DNA of 64,000 nt, taken from positions 1 through 64,000 of the forward strand of contig OU015524.1 in NCBI GenBank assembly GCA_907165065.1, written 5' to 3'. Numbering within the stretch: the stretch's first letter is position 1; the number at the start of each line of letters is the position of its first letter. The DNA is from Caprimulgus europaeus. Its lineage: Eukaryota; Chordata; Aves; Caprimulgiformes; Caprimulgidae. Below the pieces are notes generated by a model that saw only the letters and a program-made list of their open reading frames with translations, ran no database searches and had not been told where the DNA came from. Of this stretch, positions 40,440-64,000 are shown piece after piece. A program made the translations under genes and the position numbers.

Positions 40440-40440
40440 C

Positions 40441-40830
40441 TTCTCACGAGTTTCACCTGGGGTGCCCCAACCCACTGCTGAAGCCATTCAGGATTGGGGA
40501 ACCATCTACCTTGCCCCACAGTAGCCCAAAGGCAGCAGGACCAAAGCAAAATGGAGAAGAGGAAAGCAGGAGGAAAGACAGGTGGACAAAGAGAAGAAAT
40601 GTGGGACAAGGAGACAATAAATGAGATGTTGCAAACGAGAGATATTAGCAAACAGAGACCCTAGTTCCAAACCAGAAGTCCTTGGGAGTACCCCTGGTTT
40701 TGGTGTGGAACCCTAATTGTAGCCTGGAAGTCCCTGCGAGTACCCCTAGTTCCAGGGGAAAAAAACCCCTAACTCCAGAGTGAACATCCCTCGGGGTACT
40801 CTGAGGTCTAAGGTGGAACCCTAATTCCAC
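40441..40830 (+). repeat. Edge unit copy 2
   Basis: A second copy of the ~390-bp segment, beginning TTCTCACGAG directly after the solitary satellite monomer. It contains a purine-rich tract at about 40543-40626 and then passes into the 52-bp array. Over 40442-41192 I count by eye only about nine differences from 63251-64000, against clearly more from copy 1. The interior shows no gene. Confidence 0.92.
40543..40626 (+). other. Purine-rich tract, copy 2
   Basis: The counterpart of the tract at 39970-40054, with slightly more interruptions (ATGG and AATAAATG). It lies about 100 bp to the right of the satellite edge. Confidence 0.72.
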
Positions 40831-42540
40831 ACCAGAAGTCCCTAGGGGAACCCTTTGTGGCAGAACTGAACCCTAATTCCATACCAAGATTCACTGGGGG
40901 CAACCGAAGTTGCAGGGCAGATCTCTAATTCCATACCGAAAGTCCCTAGGAGTACCCCTGGTTTCAGTGTGGAACCCTAATTGTACCCTGGAAGTCCCTG
41001 GGGGTACCCCTAGTTTGAGGGATGAACCCTAATTCCACCCTGGAAGTCCATGAGGGTACCTCTAGTTTCTTGGCGGAACCCTAATTCTGCCCAAGAAGTT
41101 CCTGGGGGTACCCCTAATTCCAGGGCAGAATCTTAATTCTTCACCGGAAGTCTTTAGGGGTACCCCTAGCTCCGGGGAGAAACCCTAATTCCACCCTGGA
41201 AGTCTGTGAGGGCACCTCTAGTTTCTTGGTAGAACCCTAATTCTGCCCTGGAATTTCCTGGGGGTAACCCTAGTTCCAGGGCGGAACCCTAATCCCATAC
41301 CTGAAGTCTCTAGGAGTACCCCTCGTTGCAAGGAGGAATCCTAATTCCACACCGAATGTCCTCGGGGGTAGCCCTGGTTTCGGAGTGAAACCCTAATTGT
41401 ACCCTGGAAGTCCCTGGGGGTACCCCTGGTTGCAGGGCGGAACCTGAATTCCACATCAGAAGTTCCTTTGGGTACTCCTAGTTTCAAGGTGGAACCCCAA
41501 TTCTACCCTGGAAGTTACTGAGGGTACCCCTAATTCCAGGGCAGAATCCTAATTCCACACTGGAAGTCCCATGGGGAACTCCCTATTCCATCCTGGAATT
41601 CCCTAGGGGTACCCCAAGTTCCAGAGCAGAATCCTAATTCCACAGCGGAAGTCCCTGGGGGTACCCCTACTTCCAGGACGGAATCTTATTTACAGTCCAA
41701 AAGTCTCTTGGGGAATCCCAACTTCCCTGGCAGAACCCTAATTCTACTCCCAAAGTCCCTAGGGGTACCCATAGTTCTGGGGCAGAATCCTAATCCCACT
41801 CCCAAAGTCCCTAGCAGTACCCCTACTTCCGGGGTGGAACCCTACTGCCACTCCCAAAGTCCCTAAGGGTATCAATACTTCTGGGGCGAAACCCTAAGTC
41901 CACTCCTGAAGTCCCTAGGCGTAACCCTACTTCCAGGGCAGAACCTTAATTCCACTCCCGAAGTGCCTAGAGGTAACCCTACTTCTGGGGCGGAACCCTA
42001 ATTCCACTCCCGAAGTCCTTACAGGTAACCCTACTTCCAGGACAGAAACCTAATTCCACTCCCAAAGTCCCTAGGGGTACCCCTACGTCCGGGACAGAAC
42101 TCTAAATCCACACTGGAAGTCCCTGGGGATGTTCGTAGTTGCGAGGTGGAGCCCTACATCTAAAAGGGAACTCCCTAGGGATAAACCTACTTTAGAGGAC
42201 AAAACCCTAACTCCACTCCTGAGCTCCCTAGGGGTATCCCAACATCCGTGGCGGAACACTAATTCCACATTGGAAGTCCCTAGGGGTACCCCTGCTTCTG
42301 AAGCAGAACCTTAATTCCACTCCCAAAGTCTCTACGGGTACCCATAGTTCTGGGGCAGAACCCTAAATGCACTCAGGAAGTCCCTAGGGGTAACCCTACT
42401 TCTGAGGTGGAACCTTAATTCCACTCCCAAAGTCCCTAGGGGTACGCCTACTTCCGGGACGGAACCCTAATTCCACACTGGAAGTCCCTGAGGGTACCCC
42501 TATGTGTGGGGCAGAACCCCAATTCCACTCCAAAAGTCAT
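40650..42540 (+). repeat. 52-bp tandem repeat, forward orientation
   Basis: About 36 diverged units of the form GGAACCCTAATTCCA...GAAGTCCCTAGGGGTACCCC... . Anchors give exact 52-bp steps: ATTCC at 40824, 40876 and 40928, then ATTG at 40980, and again 41949, 42001 and 42053. Each unit has one CCCTAA hexamer and a GGGGTACCCC palindrome, which is perfect over 14 bp in some units (42072-42085, 41155-41168). Units differ from one another much more than satellite monomers do, so this array is older or less homogenised. The first units already lie inside the edge unit. Confidence 0.93.
41848..42540 (+). repeat. Left arm of an in-register inverted duplication
   Basis: Every position x here pairs with a right-arm position 85661 minus x. 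I checked this with no shift at four places: 41921-41930 with 43731-43740, 42156-42166 with 43495-43505, 42250-42278 with 43383-43411 (28 of 29 bases), and 42511-42540 with 43121-43150. Unit-specific oddities such as ACATCTAAAAG and GCGGAACACT are mirrored, so this is a true inverted copy and not just a 52-bp array that changes direction. Confidence 0.9.
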
Positions 42541-42712
42541 AAAAAAAAACAAAAATGGAAAAAAAAAACAACCCAGAGGAATAACAAAAAAAAAAGAGAA
42601 AAAATATTTTTAAAATTTAGAAAAATAAAAAAAGGAATAAAATTAAAAAAGAAAAAAAAAGGGAAAAATAATGCGGAAAAAAATATATTAAAAAAAAGAG
42701 CAAAAAACCCCC
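42541..42712. repeat. A-rich low-complexity block at the inversion hub
   Basis: About 170 bp of runs of A with scattered G and T on the plus strand, ending in a C-run before the 55-bp repeat. It starts exactly where the left inverted arm ends. It has no counterpart on the right side. It could be a slippage-expanded poly-A tail of an inserted element, but no element body is recognisable. Confidence 0.85.
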
Positions 42713-42976
42713 CTCCAGTCCGACCAGAACTAGTGAGCCGGCACTTTGGTTCCGCTGCCGTCACCGAAATGGGTCCGGCTGGAACTAGTGAGCCGGAACT
42801 TTGGTTCCGCTGCCGTCACCGAAATGGGTCCGGCTGGAACTAGTGAGCCGGAACTTTGGTTCCGCTGCCGTCACCGAAATGGGTCCGGCTGGAACTAGTG
42901 AGCCGGCACTTTGGTTCCGCTGCCGTCACCGAAATGGGTCCGGCTGGAACTAGTGAGCCGGAACTTTGGTTCCGGG
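42713..42976 (+). repeat. 55-bp tandem repeat, four full copies plus partial ends
   Basis: ACTAGTGAGCCGG begins at 42729, 42784, 42839, 42894 and 42949, four exact 55-bp steps. The copies are almost identical, differing mainly in CCGGCAC versus CCGGAAC, which implies recent amplification. The last, partial copy ends in CCGGAAC-TTTG-GTTCCGG (42958-42975), a perfect 7-bp stem with a four-base loop, right at the entry to the inverted 52-bp array. The centre of the inverted duplication, 42830.5, falls inside this repeat. Confidence 0.95.
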
Positions 42977-43813
42977 GCAGAATTTTTGTTCCTCCTTGGA
43001 ATTTGGGGTACCCCCAGGGACTTCGGGAGTGGAATTAAGGTTCCGCCCCGGAAGTAGAGGTAGCCCTAGGGACTTTGGGAGTGGAAGTAGGGTTCCATCC
43101 TGGAAGTAGGGTTGCCCCTAGCAACTTTGGGAGTGGAATTAGGGTTCCGCCCCAGAAGTTTGGACACCTCTAGGGACTTCAGGAGTGGAATTAGGGTTTC
43201 GCCCCAGAAGTTGGGATACCCCTAGGGATTTCAGGAGTTGAATTAAGGTTCCACTTCAGAATCAGGGTTACCCCTAGGGACTTCGGGAGTGGAATTAGGG
43301 TTCAGGGCAAAAAGAAAGGTTATCCCCAGGGACTTTGAGAGTGGACTTAGGGTTCCGCCCGGGAAGTTGGGTTACCCCAAGGGACTTCCAATGTGGAATA
43401 AGTGTTCCGCCACGGACGTTAGGATACACCTAGGGAGCTCAGGAGTGGAATTAGGGTTCCGTCCTCGAATGTAGGTTTACCCCTAGGGACTTACCTTTTA
43501 GATGTAGGGTTCCACCCCGCAATTAGGAACATCCCCAGGGACTTCCAGTGTGGATTTAGAGTTCTGTCCTGGAAGTAGGGTTACCACTAGGGACTTTGGG
43601 TGTGAAATCAGGGTCCCACCCTGGAAGACGGGTCACCTTGAGTGACTTCCCAAGTGCAATTAGGGTTCCACCAGGGAAGTTGGGATACCCCTTGGGACTT
43701 CTGGAGTGTAATTAAGATTCCATCCTGGAAGTAGGGTTACGCCTAGGGACTTTGGGAGTGGATTTAAGGTTGCACACCAGAACTAGGGTTACGCCTAGGA
43801 ACTTCAGGAGTTG
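42977..43813 (-). repeat. 52-bp tandem repeat, reverse orientation
   Basis: About 16 units reading as the reverse complement of the forward array: GGGACTTCGGGAGTGG, GGAATTAGGGTTCC, CCCCGGAAGTAGGG. The spacing is again 52 bp, with GGAGTGG at 43026 and 43078. The inner ~144 bp (42977-43120) has no mirrored partner, because the A-rich block lies there on the other side. The outer part is the right inverted arm. The array is cut off at 43813 by satellite. Confidence 0.93.
43121..43813 (-). repeat. Right arm of the inverted duplication
   Basis: The reverse-complement partner of 41848-42540, in exact register and separated from it by a 580-bp centre. It stops abruptly at the satellite junction, whereas the left arm continues outward as forward 52-bp repeats. 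The satellite therefore interrupts this arm, and the original inverted repeat may have been longer. Confidence 0.9.
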
Positions 43814-46800
43814 CGTTCCCCGGGAACCACACTGCCGAGAGAGCCCGGCAGGGCTCTGAAACTGCGAATGAACGCTGCCTGCTCCAAGGCCAAAGGAGCC
43901 AGGCTTGAAAGCTGCTGCTGGATCTTTTCTCCAACCGCCCACGCACTTATAGCCCCATTCAACTCGGGCCTCAGTCCTTTGCCTGGCTCGCCAGGAGCGT
44001 TTTCGTTCCCCGAGAACCACACTGCCGAGAGAGCCCGGCAGGGCTCTGAAACTGCGAATGAACGCTGCCTGCTCCAAGGCCAAAGGAGCCAGGCTTGAAA
44101 GCTGCTGCTGGATCTTTTCTCCAACCGCCCACGCACTTATAGCCCCAATTCAACTCGGGCCTCAGTCCTTTGCCTGGCTTGCCAGGAGCGTTTTCGTTCC
44201 CCAGAGCCACACTGCCGAGAGAGCCCGGCAGGGCTCTGAAACTGCGAATGAACGCTGCCTGCTCCAAGGCCAAAGGAGCCAGGCTTGAAAGCTGCTGCTG
44301 GATCTTTTCTCCAACCGCCCACGCACTTATAGCCCCATTCAACTCGGGCCTCAGTCCTTTGCCTGGCTCGCCAGGAGCGTTTTCGTTCCCCGAGAGCCAC
44401 ACTGCCGAGAGAGCCCGGCAGGGCTCTGAAAACTGCGAATGAACGCTGCCTGCTCCAAGGCCAAAGGAGCCAGGCTTGAAAGCTGCTGCTGGATCTTTTC
44501 TCCAACCGCCCACGCACTTATAGCCCCAATCAACTCGGGCCTCAGTCCTTTGCCTGGCTCGCCAGGAGCGTTTTCGTTCCCCGGGAACCACACTGCCGAG
44601 AGAGCCCGGCAGGGCTCTGAAACTGCGAATGAACGCTGCCTGCTCCAAGGCCAAAGGAGCCAGGCTTGAAAGCTGCTGCTGGATCTTTTCTCCAACCGCC
44701 CACGCACTTATAGCCCCAATCAACTCGGGCCTCAGTCCTTTGCCTGGCTCGCCAGGAGCGTTTTCGTTCCCCGGGAACCACACTGCCGAGAGAGCCCGGC
44801 AGGGCTCTGAAACTGCGAATGAACGCTGCCTGCTCCAAGGCCAAAGGAGCCAGGCTTGAAAGCTGCTGCTGGATCTTTTCTCCAACCGCCCACGCACTTA
44901 TAGCCCCATTCAACTCGGGCCTCAGTCCTTTGCCTGGCTTGCCAGGAGCGTTTTCGTTCACCCAGAGCCACACTGCCGAGAGAGCCCGGCAGGGCTCTGA
45001 AACTGCGAATGAACGCTGCCTGCTCCAAGGCCAAAGGAGCCAGGCTTGAAAGCTGCTGCTGGATCTTTTCTCCAACCGCCCACGCACTTATAGCCCCAAT
45101 CAACTCGGGCCTCAGTCCTTTGCCTGGCTCGCCAGGAGCGTTTTCGTTCACCAGAGCCACACTGCCGAGAGAGCCCGGCAGGGCACTGAAACTGCGAATG
45201 AACGCTGCCTGCTCCAAGGCCAAAGGAGCCAGGCTTGAAAGCTGCTGCTGGATCTTTTCTCCAACCGCCCACGCACTTATAGCCCCATTCAACTCGGGCC
45301 TCAGTCCTTTGCCTGGCTCGCCAGGAGCGTTTTCGTTCCCCGGAGCCACACTGCCGAGAGAGCCCGGCAGGGCTCTGAAACTGCGAATGAACGCTGCCTG
45401 CTCCAAGGCCAAAGGAGCCAGGCTTGAAAGCTGCTGCTGGATCTTTTCTCCAACCGCCCACGCACTTATAGCCCCATTCAACTCGGGCCTCAGTCCTTTG
45501 CCTGGCTCGCCAGGAGCGTTTTCGTTCCCCGAGAGCCACACTGCCGAGAGAGCCCGGCAGGGCTCTGAAACTGCGAATGAACGCTGCCTGCTCCAAGGCC
45601 AAAGGAGCCAGGCTTGAAAGCTGCTGCTGGATCTTTTCTCCAACCGCCCACGCACTTATAGCCCCAATCAACTCGGGCCTCAGTCCTTTGCCTGGCTTGC
45701 CAGGAGCGTTTTCGTTCCCCGAGAGCCACACTGCCGAGAGAGCCCGGCAGGGCTCTGAAACTGCGAATGAACGCTGCCTGCTCCAAGGCCAAAGGAGCCA
45801 GGCTGAAAGCTGCTGCTGGATCTTTTCTCCAACCGCCCACGCACTTATAGCCCCATTCAACTCGGGCCTCAGTCCTTTGCCTGGCTCGCCAGGAGCGTTT
45901 TCGTTCCCCGGGAACCACACTGCCGAGAGAGCCCGGCAGGGCTCTGAAACTGCGAATGAACGCTGCCTGCTCCAAGGCCAAAGGAGCCAGGCTTGAAAGC
46001 TGCTGCTGGATCTTTTCTCCAACCGCCCACGCACTTATAGCCCCATTCAACTCGGGCCTCAGTCCTTTGCCTGGCTTGCCAGGAGCGTTTTCGTTCCCCG
46101 GGAACCACACTGCCGAGAGAGCCAGGCAGGGCTCTGAAACTGCGAATGAACGCTGCCTGCTCCAAGGCCAAAGGAGCCAGGCTCGAAAGCTGCTGCTGGA
46201 TCTTTTCTCCAACCGCCCACGCACTTATAGCCCCAATCAACTCGGGCCTCAGTCCTTTGCCTGGCTCGCCAGGAGCGTTTTCGTTCCCCGAGAGCCACAC
46301 TGCCGAGGGAGCCCGGCAGGGCTCTGAAACTGCGAATGAACGCTGCCTGCTCCAGGCCAAAGGAGCCAGGCTTGAAAGCTGCTGCTGGATCTTTTCTCCA
46401 ACCGCCCACGCACTTATAGCCCCATTCAACTCGGGCCTCAGTCCTTTGCCTGGCTCGCCAGGAGCGTTTTCGTTCCCCGGGAACCACACTGCCGAGAGAG
46501 CCCGGCAGGGCTCTGAAACTGCGAATGAACGCTGCCTGCTCCAAGGCCAAAGGAGCCAGGCTTGAAAGCTGCTGCTGGATCTTTTTCTCCAACCGCCCAC
46601 GCACTTATAGCCCCATTCAACTCGGGCCTCAGTCCTTTGCCTGGCTCGCCAGGAGCGTTTTCGTTCCCCGAGAGCCACACTGCCGAGAGAGCCCGGCAGG
46701 GCTCCGAAACTGCGAATGAACGCTGCCTGCTCCAAGGCCAAAGGAGCCAGGCTTGAAAGCTGCTGCTGGATCTTTTCTCCAACCGCCCACGCACTTATAG

Positions 46801-49800
46801 CCCCAATCAACTCGGGCCTCAGTCCTTTGCCTGGCTCGCCAGGAGCGTTTTCGTTCCCCGGGAACCACACTGCCGAGAGAGCCCGGCAGGGCTCTGAAAC
46901 TGCGAATGAACGCTGCCTGCTCCAAGGCCAAAGGAGCCAGGCTTGAAAGCTGCTGCTGGATCTTTTCTCCAACCGCCCACGCACTTATAGCCCCATTCAA
47001 CTCGGGCCTCAGTCCTTTGCCTGGCTCGCCAGGAGCGTTTTCGTTCCCCGGAGCCACACTGCCGAGAGAGCCCGGCAGGGCTCTGAAACTGCGAATGAAC
47101 GCTGCCTGCTCCAAGGCCAAAGGAGCCAGGCTTGAAAGCTGCTGCTGGATCTTTTCTCCAACCGCCCACGCACTTATAGCCCCCATTCAACTCGGGCCTC
47201 AGTCCTTTGCCTGGCTTGCCAGGAGCGTTTTCGTTCCCCGGGAACCACACTGCCGAGAGAGCCCGGCAGGGCTCTGAAACTGCGAATGAACGCTGCCTGC
47301 TCCAAGGCCAAAGGAGCCAGGCTTGAAAGCTGCTGCTGGATCTTTTCTCCAACCGCCCACGCACTTATAGCCCCCATCAACTCGGGCCTCAGTCCTTTGC
47401 CTGGCTCGCCAGGAGCGTTTTCGTTCCCCGAGAGCCACACTGCCGAGAGAGCCCGGCAGGGCTCTGAAACTGCGAATGAACGCTGCCTGCTCCAAGGCCA
47501 AAGGAGCCAGGCTTGAAAGCTGCTGCTGGATCTTTTCTCCAACCGCCCACGCACTTATAGCCCCCAATCAACTCGGGCCTCAGTCCTTTGCCTGGCTCGC
47601 CAGGAGCGTTTTCGTTCCCCGGGAACCACACTGCCGAGAGAGCCCAGGCAGGGCTCTGAAACTGCGAATGAACGCTGCCTGCTCCAAGGCCAAAGGAGCC
47701 AGGCTTGAAAGCTGCTGCTGGATCTTTTCTCCAACCGCCCACGCACTTACAGCCCCAATCAACTCGGGCCTCAGTCCTTTGCCTGGCTCGCCAGGAGCGT
47801 TTTCGTTCCCCGGGAACCACACTGCCTAGAGAGCCCGGCAGGGCTCTGAAACTGCGAATGAACGCTGCCTGCTCCAAGGCCAAAGGAGCCAGGCTTGAAA
47901 GCTGCTGCTGGATCTTTTCTCCAACCGCCCACGCACTTATAGCCCCATTCAACTCGGGCCTCAGTCCTTTGCCTGGCTCGCCAGGAGCGTTTTCGTTCCC
48001 CGGGAAGCCACACTGCCGAGAGAGCCCGGCAAGGGCTCTGAAACTGCGAATGAACGCTGCCTGCTCCAAGGCCAAAGGAGCCAGGCTTGAAAGCTGCTGC
48101 TGGATCTTGTCTCCAACCGCCCACGCACGTATAGCCCCATTCTACTCGGGCCTCAGTCCTTTGCCTGGCTCGCCTGGAGCGTTTTCGTTCCCCGAGAGCC
48201 ACACTGCCGAGAGAGCCCGGCAGGGCCTGAAACTGCGAATGAACGCTGCCTGCTCCAAGGCCAAAGGAGCCAGGCTTGAAAGCTGCTGCTGGATCTTTTC
48301 TCCAACCGCCCACGCACTTATAGCCCCAATTGAACTCGGGCCTCAGTCCTTTGCCTGGCTTGCCAGGAGCGTTTTCGTTCCCCGAGAGCCACACTGCCTA
48401 GAGAGCCCGGCAGGGCTCTGAAACTGCGAATGAACGCTGCCTGCTCCAAGGCCAAAGGAGCCAGGCTTGAAAGCTGCTGCTGGATCTTTTCTCAACCGCC
48501 CACGCACTTATAGCCCCAATCAACTCGGGCCTCAGTCCTTTGCCTGGCTTGCCAGGAGCGTTTTCGTTCCCCGAGAGCCACACTGCCGAGAGAGCCCGGC
48601 AGGGCTCTGAAACTGCGAATGAACGCTGCCTGCTCCAAGGCCAAAGGAGCCAGGCTTGAAAGCTGCTGCTGGATCTTTTCTCCAACCGCCCACGCACTTA
48701 TAGCCCCATTCAACTCGGGCCTCAGTCCTTTGCCTGGCTCGCCAGGAGCGTTTTCGTTCCCCGAGAGCCACACTGCCGAGAGAGCCCGGCAGGGCTCTGA
48801 AACTGCGAATGAACGCTGCCTGCTCCAAGGCCAAAGGAGCCAGGCTTGAAAGCTGCTGCTGGATCTTTTCTCCAACCGCCCACGCACTTATAGCCCCAAT
48901 CAACTCGGGCCTCAGTCCTTTGCCTGGCTCGCCAGGAGCGTTTTCGTTCCCCGAGAGCCACACTGCCGAGAGAGCCCGGCAGGGCTCTGAAACTGCGAAT
49001 GAACGCTGCCTGCTCCAAGGCCAAAGGAGCCAGGCTTGAAAGCTGCTGCTGGATCTTTTCTCCAACCGCCCACGCACTTATAGCCCCAATCAACTCGGGC
49101 CTCAGTCCTTTGCCTGGCTTGCCAGGAGCGTTTTCGTTCACCCAGAGCCACACTGCCGAGAGAGCCCGGCAGGGCTCTGAAACTGCGAATGAACGCTGCC
49201 TGCTCCAAGGCCAAAGGAGCCAGGCTTGAAAGCTGCTGCTGGATCTTTTCTCCAACCGCCCACGCACTTATAGCCCCAATCAACTCGGGCCTCAGTCCTT
49301 TGCCTGGCTCGCCAGGAGCGTTTTCGTTCCCCGAGAGCCACACTGCCGAGAGAGCCCGGCAGGGCTCTGAAACTGCGAATGAACGCTGCCTGCTCCAAGG
49401 CCAAAGGAGCCAGGCTTGAAAGCTGCTGCTGGATCTTTTCTCCAACCGCCCACGCACTTATAGCCCCAATCAACTCGGGCCTCAGTCCTTTGCCTGGCTC
49501 GCCAGGAGCGTTTTCGTTCCCCGGAAGCCACACTGCCGAGAGAGCCCGGCAGGGCTCTGAAACTGCGAATGAACGCTGCCTGCTCCAAGGCCAAAGGAGC
49601 CAGGCTTGAAAGCTGCTGCTGGATCTTTTCTCCAACCGCCCACGCACTTATAGCCCCAATCAACTCGGGCCTCAGTCCTTTGCCTGGCTCGCCAGGAGCG
49701 TTTTCGTTCCCCGGGAACCACACTGCCGAGAGAGCCCGGCAGGGCTCTGAAACTGCGAATGAACGCTGCCTGCTCCAAGGCCAAAGGAGCCAGGCTTGAA

Positions 49801-52800
49801 AGCTGCTGCTGGATCTTTTCTCCAACCGCCCACGCACTTATAGCCCCATTCAACTCGGGCCTCAGTCCTTTGCCTGGCTCGCCAGGAGCGTTTTCGTTCC
49901 CCGGGAGCCACACTGCCGAGAGAGCCCGGCAGGGCTCTGAAACTGCGAATGAACGCTGCCTGCTCCAAGGCCAAAGGAGCCAGGCTTGAAAGCTGCTGCT
50001 GGATCTTTTCTCCAACCGCCCACGCACTTATAGCCCCAATCAACTCGGGCCTCAGTCCTTTGCCTGGCTCGCCAGGAGCGTTTTCGTTCCCCGAGAGCCA
50101 CACTGCCGAGAGAGCCCGGCAGGGCTCTGAAACTGCGAATGAACGCTGCCTGCTCCAAGGCCAAAGGAGCCAGGCTTGAAAGCTGCTGCTGGATCTTTTC
50201 TCCAACCGCCCACGCACTTATAGCCCCAATCAACTCGGGCCTCAGTCCTTTGCCTGGCTCGCCAGGAGCGTTTTCGTTCCCCGAGAGCCACACTGCCGAG
50301 AGAGCCCGGCAGGGCTCTGAAACTGCGAATGAACGCTGCCTGCTCCAAGGCCAAAGGAGCCAGGCTTGAAAGCTGCTGCTGGATCTTTTCTCCAACCGCC
50401 CACGCACTTATAGCCCCAATCAACTCGGGCCTCAGTCCTTTGCCTGGCTCGCCAGGAGCGTTTTCGTTCCCCGGAGCCACACTGCCGAGAGAGCCCGGCA
50501 GGGCTCTGAAACTGCGAATGAACGCTGCCTGCTCCAAGGCCAAAGGAGCCAGGCTTGAAAGCTGCTGCTGGATCTTTTCTCCAACCGCCCACGCACTTAT
50601 AGCCCCATTCAACTCGGGCCTCAGTCCTTTGCCTGGCTCGCCAGGAGCGTTTTCGTTCCCCGGGAGCCACACTGCCGAGAGAGCCCGGCAGGGCTCTGAA
50701 ACTGCGAATGAACGCTGCCTGCTCCAAGGCCAAAGGAGCCAGGCTTGAAAGCTGCTGCTGGATCTTTTCTCCAACCGCCCACGCACTTATAGCCCCATTC
50801 AACTCGGGCCTCAGTCCTTTGCCTGGCTCGCCAGGAGCGTTTTCGTTCCCCGGGAACCACACTGCCGAGAGAGCCCGGCAGGGCTCTGAAACTGCGAATG
50901 AACGCTGCCTGCTCCAAGGCCAAAGGAGCCAGGCTTGAAAGCTGCTGCTGGATCTTTTCTCCAACCGCCCACGCACTTATAGCCCCAATCAACTCGGGCC
51001 TCAGTCCTTTGCCTGGCTCGCCAGGAGCGTTTTCGTTCCCCGGAAGCCACACTGCCGAGAGAGCCCGGCAGGGCTCTGAAACTGCGAATGAACGCTGCCT
51101 GCTCCAAGGCCAAAGGAGCCAGGCTTGAAAGCTGCTGCTGGATCTTTTCTCCAACCGCCCACGCACTTATAGCCCCAATCAACTCGGGCCTCAGTCCTTT
51201 GCCTGGCTCGCCAGGAGCGTTTTCGTTCCCCAGGAGCCACACTGCCGAGAGAGCCCGGCAGGGCTCTGAAACTGCGAATGAACGCTGCCTGCTCCAAGGC
51301 CAAAGGAGCCAGGCTTGAAAGCTGCTGCTGGATCTTTTCTCCAACCGCCCACGCACTTATAGCCCCATTCAACTCGGGCCTCAGTCCTTTGCCTGGCTCG
51401 CCAGGAGCGTTTTCGTTCACCCGGAGCCACACTGCCGAGAGAGCCCGGCAGGGCTCTGAAACTGCGAATGAACGCTGCCTGCTCCAAGGCCAAAGGAGCC
51501 AGGCTTGAAAGCTGCTGCTGGATCTTTTCTCCAACCGCCCACGCACTTATAGCCCCAATCAACTCGGGCCTCAGTCCTTTGCCTGGCTCGCCAGGAGCGT
51601 TTTCGTTCCCGGGAGCCACACTGCCGAGAGAGCCCGGCAGGGCTCTGAAACTGCGAATGAACGCTGCCTGCTCCAAGGCCAAAGGAGCCAGGCTTGAAAG
51701 CTGCTGCTGGATCTTTTCTCCAACCGCCCACGCACTTATAGCCCCATTCAACTCGGGCCTCAGTCCTTTGCCTGGCTCGCCAGGAGCGTTTTCGTTCACC
51801 CAGAGCCACACTGCCGAGAGAGCCCGGCAGGGCTCTGAAACTGCGAATGAACGCTGCCTGCTCCAAGGCCAAAGGAGCCAGGCTTGAAAGCTGCTGCTGG
51901 ATCTTTTCTCCAACCGCCCACGCACTTATAGCCCCATTCAACTCGGGCCTCAGTCCTTTGCCTGGCTCGCCAGGAGCGTTTTCGTTCCCCGGGAACCACA
52001 CTGCCGAGAGAGCCCGGCAGGGCTCTGAAACTGCGAATGAACGCTGCCTGCTCCAAGGCCAAAGGAGCCAGGCTTGAAAGCTGCTGCTGGATCTTTTCTC
52101 CAACCGCCCACGCACTTATAGCCCCAATCAACTCGGGCCTCAGTCCTTTGCCTGGCTCGCCAGGAGCGTTTTCGTTCCCCGGGAAGCCACACTGCCGAGA
52201 GAGCCCGGCAGGGCTCTGAAACTGCGAATGAACGCTGCCTGCTCCAAGGCCAAAGGAGCCAGGCTTGAAAGCTGCTGCTGGATCTTTTCTCCAACCGCCC
52301 ACGCACTTATAGCCCCATTCAACTCGGGCCTCAGTCCTTTGCCTGGCTCGCCAGGAGCGTTTTCGTTCCCCGGGAGCCACACTGCCGAGAGAGCCCGGCA
52401 GGGCTCTGAAACTGCGAATGAACGCTGCCTGCTCCAAGGCCAAAGGAGCCAGGCTTGAAAGCTGCTGCTGGATCTTTTCTCCAACCGCCCACGCACTTAT
52501 AGCCCCATTCAACTCGGGCCTCAGTCCTTTGCCTGGCTCGCCAGGAGCGTTTTCGTTCCCCGGAGAGCCACACTGCCGAGAGAGCCCGGCAGGGCTCTGA
52601 AACTGCGAATGAACGCTGCCTGCTCCAAGGCCAAAGGAGCCAGGCTTGAAAGCTGCTGCTGGATCTTTTCTCCAACCGCCCACGCACTTATAGCCCCATT
52701 CAACTCGGGCCTCAGTCCTTTGCCTGGCTCGCCAGGAGCGTTTTCGTTCCCCGGAGCCACCCTGCCGAGAGAGCCCGGCAGGGCTCTGAAACTGCGAATG

Positions 52801-55800
52801 AACGCTGCCTGCTCCAAGGCCAAAGGAGCCAGGCTTGAAAGCTGCTGCTGGATCTTTTCTCCAACCGCCCACGCACTTATAGCCCCATTCAACTCGGGCC
52901 TCAGTCCTTTGCCTGGCTCGCCAGGAGCGTTTTCGTTCCCCGGGAGCCACACTGCCGAGAGAGCCCGGCAGGGCTCTGAAACTGCGAATGAACGCTGCCT
53001 GCTCCAAGGCCAAAGGAGCCAGGCTTGAAAGCTGCTGCTGGATCTTTTCTCCAACCGCCCACGCACTTATAGCCCCAATCAACTCGGGCCTCAGTCCTTT
53101 GCCTGGCTCGCCAGGAGCGTTTTCGTTCCCCAGGAGCCACACTGCCGAGAGAGCCCGGCAGGGCTCTGAAACTGCGAATGAACGCTGCCTGCTCCAAGGC
53201 CAAAGGAGCCAGGCTTGAAAGCTGCTGCTGGATCTTTTCTCCAACCGCCCACGCACTTATAGCCCCATTCAACTCGGGCCTCAGTCCTTTGCCTGGCTCG
53301 CCAGGAGCGTTTTCGTTCCCCGGGAGCCACACTGCCGAGAGAGCCCGGCAGGGCTCTGAAACTGCGAATGAACGCTGCCTGCTCCAAGGCCAAAGGAGCC
53401 AGGCTTGAAAGCTGCTGCTGGATCTTTTCTCCAACCGCCCACGCACTTATAGCCCCATTCAACTCGGGCCTCAGTCCTTTGCCTGGCTCGCCAGGAGCGT
53501 TTTCGTTCCCTGGAGCCACACTGCCGAGAGAGCCCGGCAGGGCTCTGAAACTGCGAATGAACGCTGCCTGCTCCAAGGCCAAAGGAGCCAGGCTTGAAAG
53601 CTGCTGCTGGATCTTTTCTCCAACCGCCCACGCACTTATAGCCCCATTCAACTCGGGCCTCAGTCCTTTGCCTGGCTCGCCAGGAGCGTTTTCGTTCCCC
53701 GGGAACCACACTGCCGAGAGAGCCCGGCAGGGCTCTGAAACTGCGAATGAACGCTGCCTGCTCCAAGGCCAAAGGAGCCAGGCTTGAAAGCTGCTGCTGG
53801 ATCTTTTCTCCAACCGCCCACGCACTTATAGCCCCATTCAACTCGGGCCTCAGTCCTTTGCCTGGCTCGCCAGGAGCGTTTTCGTTCCCCGGGAACCACA
53901 CTGCCGAGAGAGCCCGGCAGGGCTCTGAAACTGCGAATGAACGCTGCCTGCTCCAAGGCCAAAGGAGCCAGGCTTGAAAGCTGCTGCTGGATCTTTTCTC
54001 CAACCGCCCACGCACTTATAGCCCCAATCAACTCGGGCCTCAGTCCTTTGCCTGGCTCGCCAGGAGCGTTTTCGTTCCCCGGAGACCACACTGCCGAGAG
54101 AGCCCGGCAGGGCTCTGAAACTGCGAATGAACGCTGCCTGCTCCAAGGCCAAAGGAGCCAGGCTTGAAAGCTGCTGCTGGATCTTTTCTCCAACCGCCCA
54201 CGCACTTATAGCCCCATTCAACTCGGGCCTCAGTCCTTTGCCTGGCTCGCCAGGAGCGTTTTCGTTCCCCGAGAGCCACACTGCCGAGAGAGCCCGGCAG
54301 GGCTCTGAAACTGCGAATGAACGCTGCCTGCTCCAAGGCCAAAGGAGCCAGGCTTGAAAGCTGCTGCTGGATCTTTTCTCCAACCGCCCACGCACTTATA
54401 GCCCCAATCAACTCGGGCCTCAGTCCTTTGCCTGGCTCGCCAGGAGCGTTTTCGTTCCCCGAGAGCCACACTGCCGAGAGAGCCCGGCAGGGCTCTGAAA
54501 CTGCGAATGAACGCTGCCTGCTCCAAGGCCAAAGGAGCCAGGCTTGAAAGCTGCTGCTGGATCTTTTCTCCAACCGCCCACGCACTTATAGCCCCAATCA
54601 ACTCGGGCCTCAGTCCTTTGCCTGGCTCGCCAGGAGCGTTTTCGTTCACCCAGGAGCCACACTGCCGAGAGAGCCCGGCAGGGCTCTGAAACTGCGAATG
54701 AACGCTGCCTGCTCCAAGGCCAAAGGAGCCAGGCTTGAAAGCTGCTGCTGGATCTTTTCTCCAACCGCCCACGCACTTATAGCCCCAATCAACTCGGGCC
54801 TCAGTCCTTTGCCTGGCTCGCCAGGAGCGTTTTCGTTCCCGGGAGCCACACTGCCGAGAGAGCCCGGCAGGGCTCTGAAACTGCGAATGAACGCTGCCTG
54901 CTCCAAGGCCAAAGGAGCCAGGCTTGAAAGCTGCTGCTGGATCTTTTCTCCAACCGCCCACGCACTTATAGCCCCAATCAACTCGGGCCTCAGTCCTTTG
55001 CCTGGCTTGCCAGGAGCGTTTTCGTTCACCCGGAGCCACACTGCCGAGAGAGCCCGGCAGGGCTCTGAAACTGCGAATGAACGCTGCCTGCTCCAAGGCC
55101 AAAGGAGCCAGGCTTGAAAGCTGCTGCTGGATCTTTTCTCCAACCGCCCACGCACTTATAGCCCCAATCAACTCGGGCCTCAGTCCTTTGCCTGGCTCGC
55201 CAGGAGCGTTTTCGTTCCCCGGGAACCACACTGCCGAGAGAGCCCGGCAGGGCTCTGAAACTGCGAATGAACGCTGCCTGCTCCAAGGCCAAAGGAGCCA
55301 GGCTTGAAAGCTGCTGCTGGATCTTTTCTCCAACCGCCCACGCACTTATAGCCCCATTCAACTCGGGCCTCAGTCCTTTGCCTGGCTCGCCAGGAGCGTT
55401 TTCGTTCCCCGAGAGCCACACTGCCGAGAGAGCCCGGCAGGGCTCTGAAACTGCGAATGAACGCTGCCTGCTCCAAGGCCAAAGGAGCCAGGCTTGAAAG
55501 CTGCTGCTGGATCTTTTCTCCAACCGCCCACGCACTTATAGCCCCATTCAACTCGGGCCTCAGTCCTTTGCCTGGCTCGCCAGGAGCGTTTTCGTTCCCC
55601 GGGAGCCACACTGCCGAGAGAGCCCGGCAGGGCTCTGAAACTGCGAATGAACGCTGCCTGCTCCAAGGCCAAAGGAGCCAGGCTTGAAAGCTGCTGCTGG
55701 ATCTTTTCTCCAACCGCCCACGCACTTATAGCCCCATTCAACTCGGGCCTCAGTCCTTTGCCTGGCTTGCCAGGAGCGTTTTCGTTCCCCGGGAACCACA

Positions 55801-58800
55801 CTGCCGAGAGAGCCCGGCAGGGCTCTGAAACTGCGAATGAACGCTGCCTGCTCCAAGGCCAAAGGAGCCAGGCTTGAAAGCTGCTGCTGGATCTTTTCTC
55901 CAACCGCCCACGCACTTATAGCCCCATTCAACTCGGGCCTCAGTCCTTTGCCTGGCTCGCCAGGAGCGTTTTCGTTCCCCGGGAGCCACACTGCCGAGAG
56001 AGCCCGGCAGGGCTCTGAAACTGCGAATGAACGCTGCCTGCTCCAAGGCCAAAGGAGCCAGGCTTGAAAGCTGCTGCTGGATCTTTTCTCCAACCGCCCA
56101 CGCACTTATAGCCCCATTCAACTCGGGCCTCAGTCCTTTGCCTGGCTCGCCAGGAGCGTTTTCGTTCCCCGAGAGCCACACTGCCGAGAGAGCCCGGCAG
56201 GGCTCTGAAACTGCGAATGAACGCTGCCTGCTCCAAGGCCAAAGGAGCCAGGCTTGAAAGCTGCTGCTGGATCTTTTCTCCAACCGCCCACGCACTTATA
56301 GCCCCAATCAACTCGGGCCTCAGTCCTTTGCCTGGCTTGCCAGGAGCGTTTTCGTTCCCCGGGAACCACACTGCCGAGAGAGCCCGGCAGGGCTCTGAAA
56401 CTGCGAATGAACGCTGCCTGCTCCAAGGCCAAAGGAGCCAGGCTTGAAAGCTGCTGCTGGATCTTTTCTCCAACCGCCCACGCACTTATAGCCCCAATCA
56501 ACTCGGGCCTCAGTCCTTTGCCTGGCTCGCCAGGAGCGTTTTCGTTCCCCGGAGCCACACTGCCGAGAGAGCCCGGCAGGGCTCTGAAACTGCGAATGAA
56601 CGCTGCCTGCTCCAAGGCCAAAGGAGCCAGGCTTGAAAGCTGCTGCTGGATCTTTTCTCCAACCGCCCACGCACTTATAGCCCCATTCAACTCGGGCCTC
56701 AGTCCTTTGCCTGGCTCGCCAGGAGCGTTTTCGTTCCCCGGAGACCACACTGCCGAGAGAGCCCGGCAGGGCTCTGAAACTGCGAATGAACGCTGCCTGC
56801 TCCAAGGCCAAAGGAGCCAGGCTTGAAAGCTGCTGCTGGATCTTTTCTCCAACCGCCCACGCACTTATAGCCCCAATCAACTCGGGCCTCAGTCCTTTGC
56901 CTGGCTCGCCAGGAGCGTTTTCGTTCACCAGAGCCACACTGCCGAGAGAGCCCGGCAGGGCTCTGAAACTGCGAATGAACGCTGCCTGCTCCAAGGCCAA
57001 AGGAGCCAGGCTTGAAAGCTGCTGCTGGATCTTTTCTCCAACCGCCCACGCACTTATAGCCCCAATCAACTCGGGCCTCAGTCCTTTGCCTGGCTCGCCA
57101 GGAGCGTTTTCGTTCCCCGGGAACCACACTGCCGAGAGAGCCCGGCAGGGCTCTGAAACTGCGAATGAACGCTGCCTGCTCCAAGGCCAAAGGAGCCAGG
57201 CTTGAAAGCTGCTGCTGGATCTTTTCTCCAACCGCCCACGCACTTATAGCCCCAATCAACTCGGGCCTCAGTCCTTTGCCTGGCTCGCCAGGAGCGTTTT
57301 CGTTCCCCGGGAGCCACACTGCCGAGAGAGCCCGGCAGGGCTCTGAAACTGCGAATGAACGCTGCCTGCTCCAAGGCCAAAGGAGCCAGGCTTGAAAGCT
57401 GCTGCTGGATCTTTTCTCCAACCGCCCACGCACTTATAGCCCCATTCAACTCGGGCCTCAGTCCTTTGCCTGGCTCGCCAGGAGCGTTTTCGTTCCCCGG
57501 AGCCACACTGCCGAGAGAGCCCGGCAGGGCTCTGAAACTGCGAATGAACGCTGCCTGCTCCAAGGCCAAAGGAGCCAGGCTTGAAAGCTGCTGCTGGATC
57601 TTTTCTCCAACCGCCCACGCACTTATAGCCCCATTCAACTCGGGCCTCAGTCCTTTGCCTGGCTCGCCAGGAGCGTTTTCGTTCCCCGGAGCCACACTGC
57701 CGAGAGAGCCCGGCAGGGCTCTGAAACTGCGAATGAACGCTGCCTGCTCCAAGGCCAAAGGAGCCAGGCTTGAAAGCTGCTGCTGGATCTTTTCTCCAAC
57801 CGCCCACGCACTTATAGCCCCAATCAACTCGGGCCTCAGTCCTTTGCCTGGCTCGCCAGGAGCGTTTTCGTTCCCCGGGAGCCACACTGCCGAGAGAGCC
57901 CGGCAGGGCTCTGAAACTGCGAATGAACGCTGCCTGCTCCAAGGCCAAAGGAGCCAGGCTTGAAAGCTGCTGCTGGATCTTTTCTCCAACCGCCCACGCA
58001 CTTATAGCCCCATTCAACTCGGGCCTCAGTCCTTTGCCTGGCTCGCCAGGAGCGTTTTCGTTCCCCGGAACCACACTGCCGAGAGAGCCCGGCAGGGCTC
58101 TGAAACTGCGAATGAACGCTGCCTGCTCCAAGGCCAAAGGAGCCAGGCTTGAAAGCTGCTGCTGGATCTTTTCTCCAACCGCCCACGCACTTATAGCCCC
58201 AATCAACTCGGGCCTCAGTCCTTTGCCTGGCTCGCCAGGAGCGTTTTCGTTCCCCGGGAACCACACTGCCGAGAGAGCCCGGCAGGGCTCTGAAACTGCG
58301 AATGAACGCTGCCTGCTCCAAGGCCAAAGGAGCCAGGCTTGAAAGCTGCTGCTGGATCTTTTCTCCAACCGCCCACGCACTTATAGCCCCATTCAACTCG
58401 GGCCTCAGTCCTTTGCCTGGCTCGCCAGGAGCGTTTTCGTTTCCCCGGAGCCACACTGCCGAGAGAGCCCGGCAGGGCTCTGAAACTGCGAATGAACGCT
58501 GCCTGCTCCAAGGCCAAAGGAGCCAGGCTTGAAAGCTGCTGCTGGATCTTTTCTCCAACCGCCCACGCACTTATAGCCCCATTCAACTCGGGCCTCAGTC
58601 CTTTGCCTGGCTCGCCAGGAGCGTTTTCGTTCCCCGGGAACCACACTGCCGAGAGAGCCCGGCAGGGCTCTGAAACTGCGAATGAACGCTGCCTGCTCCA
58701 AGGCCAAAGGAGCCAGGCTTGAAAGCTGCTGCTGGATCTTTTCTCCAACCGCCCACGCACTTATAGCCCCATTCAACTCGGGCCTCAGTCCTTTGCCTGG

Positions 58801-58871
58801 CTCGCCAGGAGCGTTTTCGTTCCCCGGGAACCACACTGCCGAGAGAGCCCGGCAGGGCTCTGAAACTGCGA

Positions 58872-59061
58872 ATGAACGCTGCCTGCTCCAAGGCCAAAGG
58901 AGCCAGGCTTGAAAGCTGCTGCTGGATCTTTTCTCCAACCGCCCACGCACTTATAGCCCCATTCAACTCGGGCCTCAGTCCTTTGCCTGGCTCGCCAGGA
59001 GCGTTTTCGTTCCCCGGGAACCACACTGCCGAGAGAGCCCGGCAGGGCTCTGAAACTGCGA
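58872..59061 (+). repeat. Reference satellite monomer with its internal dyads
   Basis: A clean, typical 190-bp unit used here to map internal structure. GAGCCAGGC at 58900-58908 is the reverse complement of GCCTGGCTC at 58985-58993. CCTGGC-TC-GCCAGG (58986-58999) is a 6-bp stem with a two-base loop. GTTCCC-C-GGGAAC (59009-59021) is a 6-bp dyad around one base. AGAGCCC-GGCA-GGGCTCT (59034-59051) is a perfect 7-bp stem with a four-base loop. The last three dyads fall within 66 bp. Because 190 is not a multiple of three, no protein frame continues in phase from unit to unit. Dyad-rich satellites are known from centromeres that lack CENP-B boxes; applying that to this locus is inference. Confidence 0.9.
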
Positions 59062-61500
59062 ATGAACGCTGCCTGCTCCAAGGCCAAAGGAGCCAGGCTT
59101 GAAAGCTGCTGCTGGATCTTTTCTCCAACCGCCCACGCACTTATAGCCCCATTCAACTCGGGCCTCAGTCCTTTGCCTGGCTCGCCAGGAGCGTTTTCGT
59201 TCCCCGGGAGCCACACTGCCGAGAGAGCCCGGCAGGGCTCTGAAACTGCGAATGAACGCTGCCTGCTCCAAGGCCAAAGGAGCCAGGCTTGAAAGCTGCT
59301 GCTGGATCTTTTCTCCAACCGCCCACGCACTTATAGCCCCATTCAACTCGGGCCTCAGTCCTTTGCCTGGCTTGCCAGGAGCGTTTTCGTTCCCCGGGAA
59401 CCACACTGCCGAGAGAGCCCGGCAGGGCTCTGAAACTGCGAATGAACGCTGCCTGCTCCAAGGCCAAAGGAGCCAGGCTTGAAAGCTGCTGCTGGATCTT
59501 TTCTCCAACCGCCCACGCACTTATAGCCCCATTCAACTCGGGCCTCAGTCCTTTGCCTGGCTCGCCAGGAGCGTTTTCGTTCCCCGGGAACCACACTGCC
59601 GAGAGAGCCCGGCAGGGCTCTGAAACTGCGAATGAACGCTGCCTGCTCCAAGGCCAAAGGAGCCAGGCTTGAAAGCTGCTGCTGGATCTTTTCTCCAACC
59701 GCCCACGCACTTATAGCCCCATTCAACTCGGGCCTCAGTCCTTTGCCTGGCTCGCCAGGAGCGTTTTCGTTCCCCGGAGACCACACTGCCGAGAGAGCCC
59801 GGCAGGGCTCTGAAACTGCGAATGAACGCTGCCTGCTCCAAGGCCAAAGGAGCCAGGCTTGAAAGCTGCTGCTGGATCTTTTCTCCAACCGCCCACGCAC
59901 TTATAGCCCCATTCAACTCGGGCCTCAGTCCTTTGCCTGGCTCGCCAGGAGCGTTTTCGTTCCCCGGGAACCACACTGCCGAGAGAGCCCGGCAGGGCTC
60001 TGAAACTGCGAATGAACGCTGCCTGCTCCAAGGCCAAAGGAGCCAGGCTTGAAAGCTGCTGCTGGATCTTTTCTCCAACCGCCCACGCACTTATAGCCCC
60101 ATTCAACTCGGGCCTCAGTCCTTTGCCTGGCTCGCCAGGAGCGTTTTCGTTCCCCGGGAGCCACACTGCCGAGAGAGCCCGGCAGGGCTCTGAAACTGCG
60201 AATGAACGCTGCCTGCTCCAAGGCCAAAGGAGCCAGGCTTGAAAGCTGCTGCTGGATCTTTTCTCCAACCGCCCACGCACTTATAGCCCCATTCAACTCG
60301 GGCCTCAGTCCTTTGCCTGGCTCGCCAGGAGCGTTTTCGTTCCCCGGAGCCACACTGCCGAGAGAGCCCGGCAGGGCTCTGAAACTGCGAATGAACGCTG
60401 CCTGCTCCAAGGCCAAAGGAGCCAGGCTTGAAAGCTGCTGCTGGATCTTTTCTCCAACCGCCCACGCACTTATAGCCCCATTCAACTCGGGCCTCAGTCC
60501 TTTGCCTGGCTTGCCAGGAGCGTTTTCGTTCCCCGGGAACCACACTGCCGAGAGAGCCCGGCAGGGCTCTGAAACTGCGAATGAACGCTGCCTGCTCCAA
60601 GGCCAAAGGAGCCAGGCTTGAAAGCTGCTGCTGGATCTTTTCTCCAACCGCCCACGCACTTATAGCCCCATTCAACTCGGGCCTCAGTCCTTTGCCTGGC
60701 TCGCCAGGAGCGTTTTCGTTCCCCGGGAACCACACTGCCGAGAGAGCCCGGCAGGGCTCTGAAACTGCGAATGAACGCTGCCTGCTCCAAGGCCAAAGGA
60801 GCCAGGCTTGAAAGCTGCTGCTGGATCTTTTCTCCAACCGCCCACGCACTTATAGCCCCATTCAACTCGGGCCTCAGTCCTTTGCCTGGCTCGCCAGGAG
60901 CGTTTTCGTTCCCCGGAGCCACACTGCCGAGAGAGCCCGGCAGGGCTCTGAAACTGCGAATGAACGCTGCCTGCTCCAAGGCCAAAGGAGCCAGGCTTGA
61001 AAGCTGCTGCTGGATCTTTTCTCCAACCGCCCACGCACTTATAGCCCCATTCAACTCGGGCCTCAGTCCTTTGCCTGGCTCGCCAGGAGCGTTTTCGTTC
61101 CCTGGAGCCACACTGCCGAGAGAGCCCGGCAGGGCTCTGAAACTGCGAATGAACGCTGCCTGCTCCAAGGCCAAAGGAGCCAGGCTTGAAAGCTGCTGCT
61201 GGATCTTTTCTCCAACCGCCCACGCACTTATAGCCCCATTCAACTCGGGCCTCAGTCCTTTGCCTGGCTTGCCAGGAGCGTTTTCGTTCCCCGGGAAGCC
61301 ACACTGCCGAGAGAGCCCGGCAGGGCTCTGAAACTGCGAATGAACGCTGCCTGCTCCAAGGCCAAAGGAGCCAGGCTTGAAAGCTGCTGCTGGATCTTTT
61401 CTCCAACCGCCCACGCACTTATAGCCCCATTCAACTCGGGCCTCAGTCCTTTGCCTGGCTCGCCAGGAGCGATTGCGTTGCCTGAAGCCACACTGCCGAG

Positions 61501-61518
61501 AGAGCCCTGCCGGGCTCT
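61501..61518 (+). other. Flipped hairpin, copy in array 2
   Basis: AGAGCCC-TGCC-GGGCTCT replaces the usual AGAGCCC-GGCA-GGGCTCT. The stem is unchanged and the loop is reverse-complemented, so the whole 18 bp is inverted. The same flipped form is at 10-27. Confidence 0.85.
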
Positions 61519-63250
61519 GAAACTGCGAATGAACGCTGCCTGCTCCAAGGCCAAAGGAGCCAGGCTTGAAAGCTGCTGCTGGATCTTTTCTCCAACCGCC
61601 CACGCACTTATAGCCCCATTCAACTCGGGCCTCAGTCCTTTGCCTGGCTTGCCAGGAGCGTTTTCGTTCCCCGGAGCCACACTGCCGAGAGAGCCCGGCA
61701 GGGCTCTGAAACTGCGAATGAACGCTGCCTGCTCCAAGGCCAAAGGAGCCAGGCTTGAAAGCTGCTGCTGGATCTTTTCTCCAACCGCCCACGCACTTAT
61801 AGCCCCATTCAACTCGGGCCTCAGTCCTTTGCCTGGCTCGCCAGGAGCGTTTTCGTTCCCCGGGAACCACACTGCCGAGAGAGCCCGGCAGGGCTCTGAA
61901 ACTGCGAATGAACGCTGCCTGCTCCAAGGCCAAAGGAGCCAGGCTTGAAAGCTGCTGCTGGATCTTTTCTCCAACCGCCCACGCACTTATAGCCCCAATC
62001 AACTCGGGCCTCAGTCCTTTGCCTGGCTTGCCAGGAGCGTTTTCGTTCCCCGGGAGCCACACTGCCGAGAGAGCCCGGCAGGGCTCTGAAACTGCGAATG
62101 AACGCTGCCTGCTCCAAGGCCAAAGGAGCCAGGCTTGAAAGCTGCTGCTGGATCTTTTCTCCAACCGCCCACGCACTTATAGCCCCATTCAACTCGGGCC
62201 TCAGTCCTTTGCCTGGCTCGCCAGGAGCGTTTTCGTTCCCCGAGAGCCACACTGCCGAGAGAGCCCGGCAGGGCTCTGAAACTGCGAATGAACGCTGCCT
62301 GCTCCAAGGCCAAAGGAGCCAGGCTTGAAAGCTGCTGCTGGATCTTTTCTCCAACCGCCCACGCACTTATAGCCCCATTCAACTCGGGCCTCAGTCCTTT
62401 GCCTGGCTTGCCAGGAGCGTTTTCGTTCCCCGGGAACCACACTGCCGAGAGAGCCCGGCAGGGCTCTGAAACTGCGAATGAACGCTGCCTGCTCCAAGGC
62501 CAAAGGAGCCAGGCTTGAAAGCTGCTGCTGGATCTTTTCTCCAACCGCCCACGCACTTATAGCCCCATTCAACTCGGGCCTCAGTCCTTTGCCTGGCTCG
62601 CCAGGAGCGTTTTCGTTCCCCGGGAGCCACACTGCCGAGAGAGCCCGGCAGGGCTCTGAAACTGCGAATGAACGCTGCCTGCTCCAAGGCCAAAGGAGCC
62701 AGGCTTGAAAGCTGCTGCTGGATCTTTTCTCCAACCGCCCACGCACTTATAGCCCCATTCAACTCGGGCCTCAGTCCTTTGCCTGGCTCGCCAGGAGCGT
62801 TTTCGTTCCCCGGGAACCACACTGCCGAGAGAGCCCGGCAGGGCTCTGAAACTGCGAATGAACGCTGCCTGCTCCAAGGCCAAAGGAGCCAGGCTTGAAA
62901 GCTGCTGCTGGATCTTTTCTCCAACCGCCCACGCACTTATAGCCCCATTCAACTCGGGCCTCAGTCCTTTGCCTGGCTCGCCAGGAGCGTTTTCGTTCCC
63001 CGAGAGCCACACTGCCGAGAGAGCCCGGCAGGGCTCTGAAACTGCGAATGAACGCTGCCTGCTCCAAGGCCAAAGGAGCCAGGCTTGAAAGCTGCTGCTG
63101 GATCTTTTCTCCAACCGCCCACGCACTTATAGCCCCATTCAACTCGGGCCTCAGTCCTTTGCCTGGCTCGCCAGGAGCGTTTGCGTTCCCCGGGAACCAC
63201 ACTGCCGAGAGAGCCCGGCAGGGCTCGGAAACTGCAAACAAACGCTGCCT

Positions 63251-63640
63251 TCTCACGAGTTTCACCTGGGGTGCCCCAACCCACTGCTGAAGCCATTCAG
63301 GATTGGGGAACCATCTATCTTGCCCCACAGTAGCCCAAAGGCAGCAGTACCAAAGCAAAATGGAGAAGAGGAAAGCAGGAGGAAAGACAGGTGGACAAAG
63401 AGAAGAAATGTGGGACAAGGAGACAAAAAATGAGATGTTGCAAACGAGACATATTAGCAAACAGAGACCCTAGTTCCAAACCAGAAGTCCTTGGGAGTAC
63501 CCCTGGTTTTGGTGTGGAACCCTAATTGTAGCCTGGAAGTCCCTGCGAGTACCCCTAGTTCCAGGGGAAAAAAAACCCTAACTCCAGAGTGAACATCCCT
63601 CGGGGTACTCTGAGGTCAAAGTGGAACCCTAATTCCACAC
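63251..63640 (+). repeat. Edge unit copy 3
   Basis: A third copy of the ~390-bp segment, starting TCTCACGAG after the last monomer of array 2 with the same junction as copy 2. It contains a purine-rich tract at about 63353-63435. It differs from copy 2 at only a handful of positions, such as ACAAAAAATG for ACAATAAATG and GAGGTCAAAG for GAGGTCTAAGG. Confidence 0.92.
63353..63435 (+). other. Purine-rich tract, copy 3
   Basis: The counterpart of the tracts at 39970 and 40543, again about 100 bp to the right of the satellite edge. Confidence 0.72.
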
Positions 63641-64000
63641 CAGAAGTCCCTAGGGGAACCCTTTGTGGCAGAACTGAACCCTAATTCCATACCAAGATTC
63701 ACTGGGGGCACCCGAAGTTGCAGGGCAGATCTCTAATTCCATACCGAAAGTCCCTAGGAGTACCCCTGGTTTCAGTGTGGAACCCTAATTGTACCCTGGA
63801 AGTCCCTGGGGGTACCCCTAGTTTGAGGGATGAACCCTAATTCCACCCTGGAAGTCCATGAGGGTACCTCTAGTTTCTTGGCGGAACCCTAATTCTTCCC
63901 AAGAAGTTCCTGGGGGTACCCCTAATTCCAGGGCAGAATCTTAATTCTTCACCGGAAGTCTTTAGGGGTACCCCTAGCTCCGGGGAGAAACCCTAATTCC
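63460..64000 (+). repeat. 52-bp tandem repeat, forward orientation, running off the window
   Basis: The same 52-bp units as at 40650-41192, in the same order and nearly identical. The window ends at the equivalent of 41192, so whether the A-rich hub and inverted arm follow cannot be seen here. Confidence 0.92.

Follow-up and report, generated by a model that had tools for sequence, protein, structure and literature searches.

Introduction

In the African great apes chimpanzee and gorilla, the subterminal chromosome caps consist of the pCht satellite together with spacers that are segmental duplications, and these spacers have been proposed as sites of ectopic exchange, for which evidence is described (PMC12758386). 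Among the described architectures that we found, these caps are the closest to the locus reported here, which resembles them in layout. The locus lies at the start of a contig (C2, 125.4 Mb) of the bird Caprimulgus europaeus. The first 64 kb of this contig, hereafter the window, hold arrays of a satellite with a period of 190 bp and ~60% G+C, interrupted by copies of a spacer module. They also hold a single satellite unit of 183 bp (40260-40442), which stands between a cut edge copy, E1 (39869-40259), and the edge sequence, E2 (40443-40657), that starts a further module. How this lone unit came to stand there is the main question of this study.

Set against the ape description, the locus shows two likenesses: satellite near chromosome ends is irregularly interrupted by copies of one spacer, and near-identical stretches lie on non-homologous chromosomes. 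The components differ. The satellite unit is 32 bp long in apes as opposed to the G+C-rich 190 bp here. The ape spacer measures 32-34 kb and stems from gene regions, whereas the module here is ~3.5 kb long and runs from an edge (E) through a forward arm of 52-bp minisatellite, an A-rich hub and a 55-bp repeat to an inverted 52-bp arm. At least 40 spacer copies here compare with some 400-700 per haplotype in apes.

Macrosatellites are tandem arrays of kilobase-sized units. The field described here shares with them a unit of that size order, arranged head to tail, but it has no constant unit, since the edge-to-edge distances read range from 3.5 to 22.8 kb. Among bird satellites, duck APL-HaeIII likewise has a 190-bp monomer, with a mean G+C of 51.6% as against ~60% here and a centromeric location by fluorescence in situ hybridisation (PMC6435179); this comparison is one of length and G+C only. 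Neither the satellite nor the module was described in the titles or abstract openings of the open-licence PMC literature among the matches listed, and a literature search by sequence words returned only titles on soybean and sugarcane among the matches listed. An exact 24-mer of the satellite was absent from the viral and prokaryote contigs searched, a plasmid collection gave no match to 38480-40440, and an Rfam scan of 36000-46000 returned nothing at gathering scores.

Results

Whole-genome searches covered 1.178 Gb in 121 contigs. An edge query taken from the window (40442-41192) gave at least 40 matches of 750 or 751 query bases, spread over 18 contigs and including the window's own two, and one partial match. 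On the eight long contigs of known length (C2, C3, C19, C20, C22, C23, C24 and C26) the edge matches listed all lie within ~100 kb of a contig end, and their orientation, again among the matches listed, is plus at contig starts and minus at contig ends. Contig C20 carries telomere repeats at 1-3198 (3.2 kb), with its first module at 21805; C2, C3, C23 and C24 end in satellite, and therefore no telomere is reached at those ends. The window belongs to a subtelomeric satellite field, in which 190-bp arrays alternate with copies of one spacer module. Two features of ape-type caps are found in it, namely adjacency to the telomere and satellite arrays interrupted by one homologous spacer. The 64 kb hold one match to the CENP-B-box consensus; a centromeric identity was considered and was dropped because telomere repeats lie outside the modules on C20.

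On C2 the field continues beyond the window. The module that starts at 63252 runs on to about C2:66733, with its forward arm reaching 65346, its hub at 65347-65526, then the 55-bp repeat, and its inverted arm at 65894-66730. The initial annotation had forecast a hub and an inverted arm at 65.3-66.6 kb, and had taken the two window junctions for a duplicated block; the continuation of this copy past 64000, together with the sixfold occurrence of the join described below, bears both expectations out. Further inward, 17 satellite units lead to a module that begins at 70032, and another 73 units to one that begins at 87454; up to 99126 diverged relatives of the arms occur among other sequence; from 99126 to 124000 there was no match. 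The macro-repeat of ~22.8 kb that had been proposed is not a fixed period, as the next two C2 edges follow after 6.8 and 17.4 kb. After the innermost C2 module, at C2:91284, sequence homologous to a 46-bp flank on C20 (C20:25718-25763) continues into other DNA without satellite, and is probably the module's original neighbour. Three contig ends (C3:1-2000, C19:1-2000 and C24:7568460-7570459) appear by eye to hold 52-bp minisatellite, with an A-rich hub on C24, and are free of the 190-bp satellite within their 2 kb.

The element immediately left of the single unit, E1, had been overlooked. It is an older copy of the edge that extends into the beginning of its 52-bp minisatellite; it shares its start base with E2 (CTCACGAGT) and differs from it in 30 of 391 columns. 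In place of satellite it is preceded by two copies of a 79-bp repeat (39706-39868), which lead into it, and by a non-satellite flank, U (38743-39705). E1 breaks off at 40259 within its minisatellite and satellite resumes at 40260, with no base shared at the breakpoint and weak similarity around it. The genome contains this join in exact form six times, on five contigs (C2, C3, C24 twice, C55 and C70), and no further copy was found in the genome within 2 mismatches. All six copies have the order satellite, U, 79-bp repeat, E1, 183 bp, E2. The 183-bp unit shows 0-2 differences among them, and across U and the 79-bp repeat the five other blocks differ from the window's in 1-6 of 1126 columns (one column each for C3 and C55).

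Contig C20 is uninterrupted where the join would be. It reads U, about one copy of the 79-bp repeat, E, a full forward arm, hub, 55-bp repeat, inverted arm, flank, satellite and the next E. In a comparison set of 16 edges, the outermost E of C20 is the nearest to E1, at 14-15 differences (15 for the window's E1) as against 24-34 to the other edges. Its U and 79-bp repeat differ from the window's in 65 of 1046 columns, 20 of these gaps, a divergence of 6.2%.

In the copies read, satellite meets module at fixed bases. The satellite-to-edge junction was found 36 times in the genome within 3 mismatches, 27 times exactly, and in the stretches read all 16 copies break at one base; five copies on C20, one on C22 and one on C26 have a slightly different edge junction that retains a shared GCTC. 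At the other end of the arrays there are two main left junctions, which we infer to be of different age. The newer leads from an inverted arm, usually of 0.84 kb, into satellite; a search that allowed 3 mismatches gave 42 copies of it, 33 of them exact, and it was read in 12 places. The older, on C20, has a 1.26-kb inverted arm and the 46-bp flank. At C3:100089110, a shortened inverted arm has a different satellite join, beside a GGTTCC that both sides resemble.

Array length appears to change by whole units, giving an older and a newer ladder of about 190n+183 and 190n+67 bp respectively, for which in-register unequal exchange would be the cause. When each newer array start was paired with the edge that follows it, 24 intervals resulted and 18 starts had no partner. 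All ten paired arrays below 6 kb measure 190n+66 to 190n+70 (n = 1, 2, 4, 6, 11, 17, 20, 20, 23 and 30), and with a C26 array at n = 2 the short arrays on the newer ladder come to 11 of 11. One of them, C22:37078-37334 (257 bp), is a true one-unit array. Newer arrays longer than 6 kb, with n up to ~140, drift through small indels; several of the long paired intervals are known by their ends only, and three contain other DNA (C24:13291, across a second U block, and two on C3 with an insertion). The window's 102-unit array is on the newer ladder. The five C20 arrays all start at GCCAAAGG, after the long inverted arm and flank, and measure 3033, 2279, 1517, 1703 and 2652 bp (n = 15, 11, 7, 8 and 13), so that five of five conform to 190n+182 to 190n+189. 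The single unit also starts at GCCAAAGG and ends where all arrays end, its 183 bp being n = 0 of the C20 ladder; the idea that it lay off the ladders was rejected once further C20 sequence had placed it on the older one.

The C3 insertions are 4318-4319 bp long and are embedded in satellite, immediately outward of three modules in a row (C3:100071655-100075973, 100091849-100096166 and 100113135-100117452). The first has 326-bp terminal repeats that are 98.5% alike, and the first two insertions are 99.1% identical. They probably go back to a single insertion event and were then multiplied along with the module.

The two junction copies in the window are nearly identical, as the initial annotation had it: 40443-41192 and 63252-64000 differ in 9 of 750 columns, in line with the count of about nine made by eye. 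With the satellite unit included (40260-41192 and 63069-64000, up to the window's last base), there are 12 differences in 933 columns (1.29%). Ten of these 12 could be polarised, with six derived at 63 kb and four at 40 kb, as expected for two real copies. The edge-specific changes GGGCTCGG and ACTGCAAAC are indeed confined, within the window, to the units before the two edges, and GGCAGGGCTCGG, ACTGCAAAC and CTGCCTTCTC occur there exactly twice each, both times in the last unit before an edge. Among 304 units compared, the last unit of the right array differs from the single unit at 3 positions and the next nearest unit at 9. The right array has the size reported earlier (43815-63251, 19,437 bp, ~102 units), and one satellite unit, of 183 bp in a satellite with a 190-bp period, does stand left of 40440.

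The reading of one unit and 102 units as two sizes of one array was not supported. The 102-unit array begins at another satellite base than the single unit and follows an inverted arm, whereas the single unit has the start and end bases of the C20 arrays and a cut forward arm as its left neighbour. Because the former is on the newer ladder and the latter on the older, '1 versus 102' sets arrays of different kinds side by side. The 102-unit array is unlikely to have grown from the single unit at 40260, as the edge variants are absent from all interior units. The motif TTGCG, common to the first and last units of the right array, was considered as a hint of such growth and dropped, since other last units carry it and it is also present at the other newer left junctions read.

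Distances between whole modules were compared for 12 modules, with gap columns excluded. The 40-kb module is 0.45% from that on C70, 0.65% from C24, 0.80% from C3 and 0.83% from the 63-kb module, which is itself nearest to C70 (0.51%) and C82 (0.56%). In a tree, the 40-kb module groups with C70 and C24 at 95/95 support and the 63-kb module falls outside. Judged by these alignments, the window's two junctions are not closest relatives. The two join copies on C24 (C24:9236-9809 and C24:27901-28474), 18.7 kb apart, have identical E1, and their modules are 2.14% apart; the module after the second is 0.51% from C23. Modules on different long contigs are thus closer than neighbours on the same contig, a copy relationship of the kind expected from ectopic exchange of the ape type, and we infer that modules have been exchanged between chromosome ends. 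The five modules in the tree that bear the scar of the join need three label changes, and 117 of 500 shuffles gave a number as low; for that reason the history of the scar cannot be read from the modules alone.

The remaining parts of the window complete this picture; all are on the plus strand, as are those given above, except the inverted arm. The left satellite array (1-38480) holds ~203 units of 190 bp and extends off the start of contig C2. At its border with U lies, at the outer edge, diverged satellite (38481-38742), with identities to the consensus of 149/205 columns (38465-38666) and 54/90 columns (38655-38742). In the 40-kb module the forward arm (40658-42538) is followed by the hub (42539-42726, ~65% A), 4.5 copies of the 55-bp repeat (42727-42974) and the inverted arm on the minus strand (42975-43814), of which 43124-43814 is ~82% identical to the reverse complement of 41847-42537.

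From the arrays, 303 complete units were cut, 202 on the left and 101 on the right. No clear higher-order repeat was found in them. A weak excess of similarity appears between units at a lag of 2, 5 or 22 in the left array, and at a lag of 10 in the right array. Stretches of three or more identical units do not recur within the window's satellite arrays, which also argues against growth of the 102-unit array from the single unit. The left and right arrays showed no match in register: their best 10-unit block had 1.5 differences, compared with a mean of 1.64 after permutation. Six aligned positions vary at 5% or more (1-38480 and 43815-63251). In the left array these are almost unlinked beyond ~20 bp (r2 0.02 or less), and neighbouring units are little alike, a pattern that short-tract gene conversion would produce. 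In the right array, the 28 units at the start (43882-49200) stand at 3.07 from the consensus, about twice the 1.59 of the remaining 73 (49203-63251). The unit at 62880-63069 contains short dyads such as CCTGGCTCGCCAGG; as single-stranded DNA its folding is somewhat better than that of shuffled sequences, with a z of -2.0 and 8 of 200 shuffles equally good.

Discussion

We propose an account that combines the subtelomeric field, the two ladders, a deletion in the E1 module and the spread of the deleted block, and we put its probability at roughly 0.65. The single unit would be the n = 0 rung of the older ladder with the wrong left neighbour, the forward arm of E1 being cut after 391 bp. A deletion would have removed the rest of the E1 module, including its hub and inverted arm, and left one satellite unit before E2. 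Measured on C20 the loss would come to ~3.6 kb, or more if satellite units went with it, and the deleted block would subsequently have reached six or more places across five contigs. As the simplest account of the sequences compared, deletion is the most likely, and it is supported because C20 shows the undeleted order and has the outermost E nearest to E1.

Several observations weigh against this account. Had the cut fallen at random in the last unit, its match to the base at which the C20 arrays start would be a 1-in-190 coincidence. That base could have been favoured by local resemblance of the 52-bp arm to the satellite: with 8 bp taken on either side it shares the top rank among 190, but 10, 12 and 16 bp give an unremarkable rank (39, 13 and 17). 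The deletion may also have ended exactly at the array start, in an array that already had one unit or shrank later. The start-base agreement therefore lowers our confidence in the deletion and raises the odds for the two rivals that retain an array of one unit. Furthermore, the undeleted order was seen on C20 only, where U has diverged by 6.2%; the scar-bearing modules, five of which were compared, do not form a single clade, and later exchange is therefore required; C55 and C70 may represent alternative haplotypes of ends that are already placed; and the joins are known here from the assembly alone.

The same start-base agreement has a place in a different history, in which the cut arm, the one unit and E2 are the original left end of an amplified segment. 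Modules and arrays would have multiplied from a segment starting at the single unit, the arrays growing afterwards, and C20 would have lost the unit and one edge through exchange between E1 and E2, direct repeats 574 bp apart. Such a history fits the first satellite base common to the single unit and all five C20 arrays, the presence of exactly one unit in six of six join copies, and the position of the join block as the outermost read on C2 and C3. It is nevertheless unlikely in our view: beyond U, both C2 and C20 have older remnants of satellite, so that the satellite predates the block, edge variants are missing from interior units, and the start of the duplicated segment would still have to fall at the join. 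More doubtful still is the specific proposal that the one-unit block is a seed and not a remnant, with six founder copies beside arrays grown unit by unit from the same bases; if true, a subtelomeric satellite would be preserved in this genome in its starting state as well as in its grown state.

Little credence can be given to a revised form of the earlier collapse reading, by which an array of the C20 type shrank to one unit through unequal exchange and its left module was lost separately. The n = 0 position of the single unit on the older ladder agrees with it, as does the existence of one- and two-unit arrays on the newer ladder (C22:37078-37334, C3 and C26), but two events are needed in place of one deletion, and the genome search found six join copies and none with more than one unit. 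An origin of the join or of the duplicated junction in misassembled repeats is hardly credible: highly similar repeats at contig ends, and a U and 79-bp repeat that differ in only 1 of 1126 columns between C2 and either C3 or C55, would invite such an error, but a one-off assembly join is unlikely because the six copies of the join are distributed over five contigs and have different modules and arrays next to them, and both window copies carry private changes.

This locus is a base-resolved case of change in a subtelomeric satellite: its junctions are fixed, its arrays fall on whole-unit ladders, and a marked join can be traced between chromosome ends. The architecture is like that of the ape caps and is made from a different satellite and a different spacer. 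Found in a bird, it would represent a further origin of satellite-plus-spacer chromosome ends.

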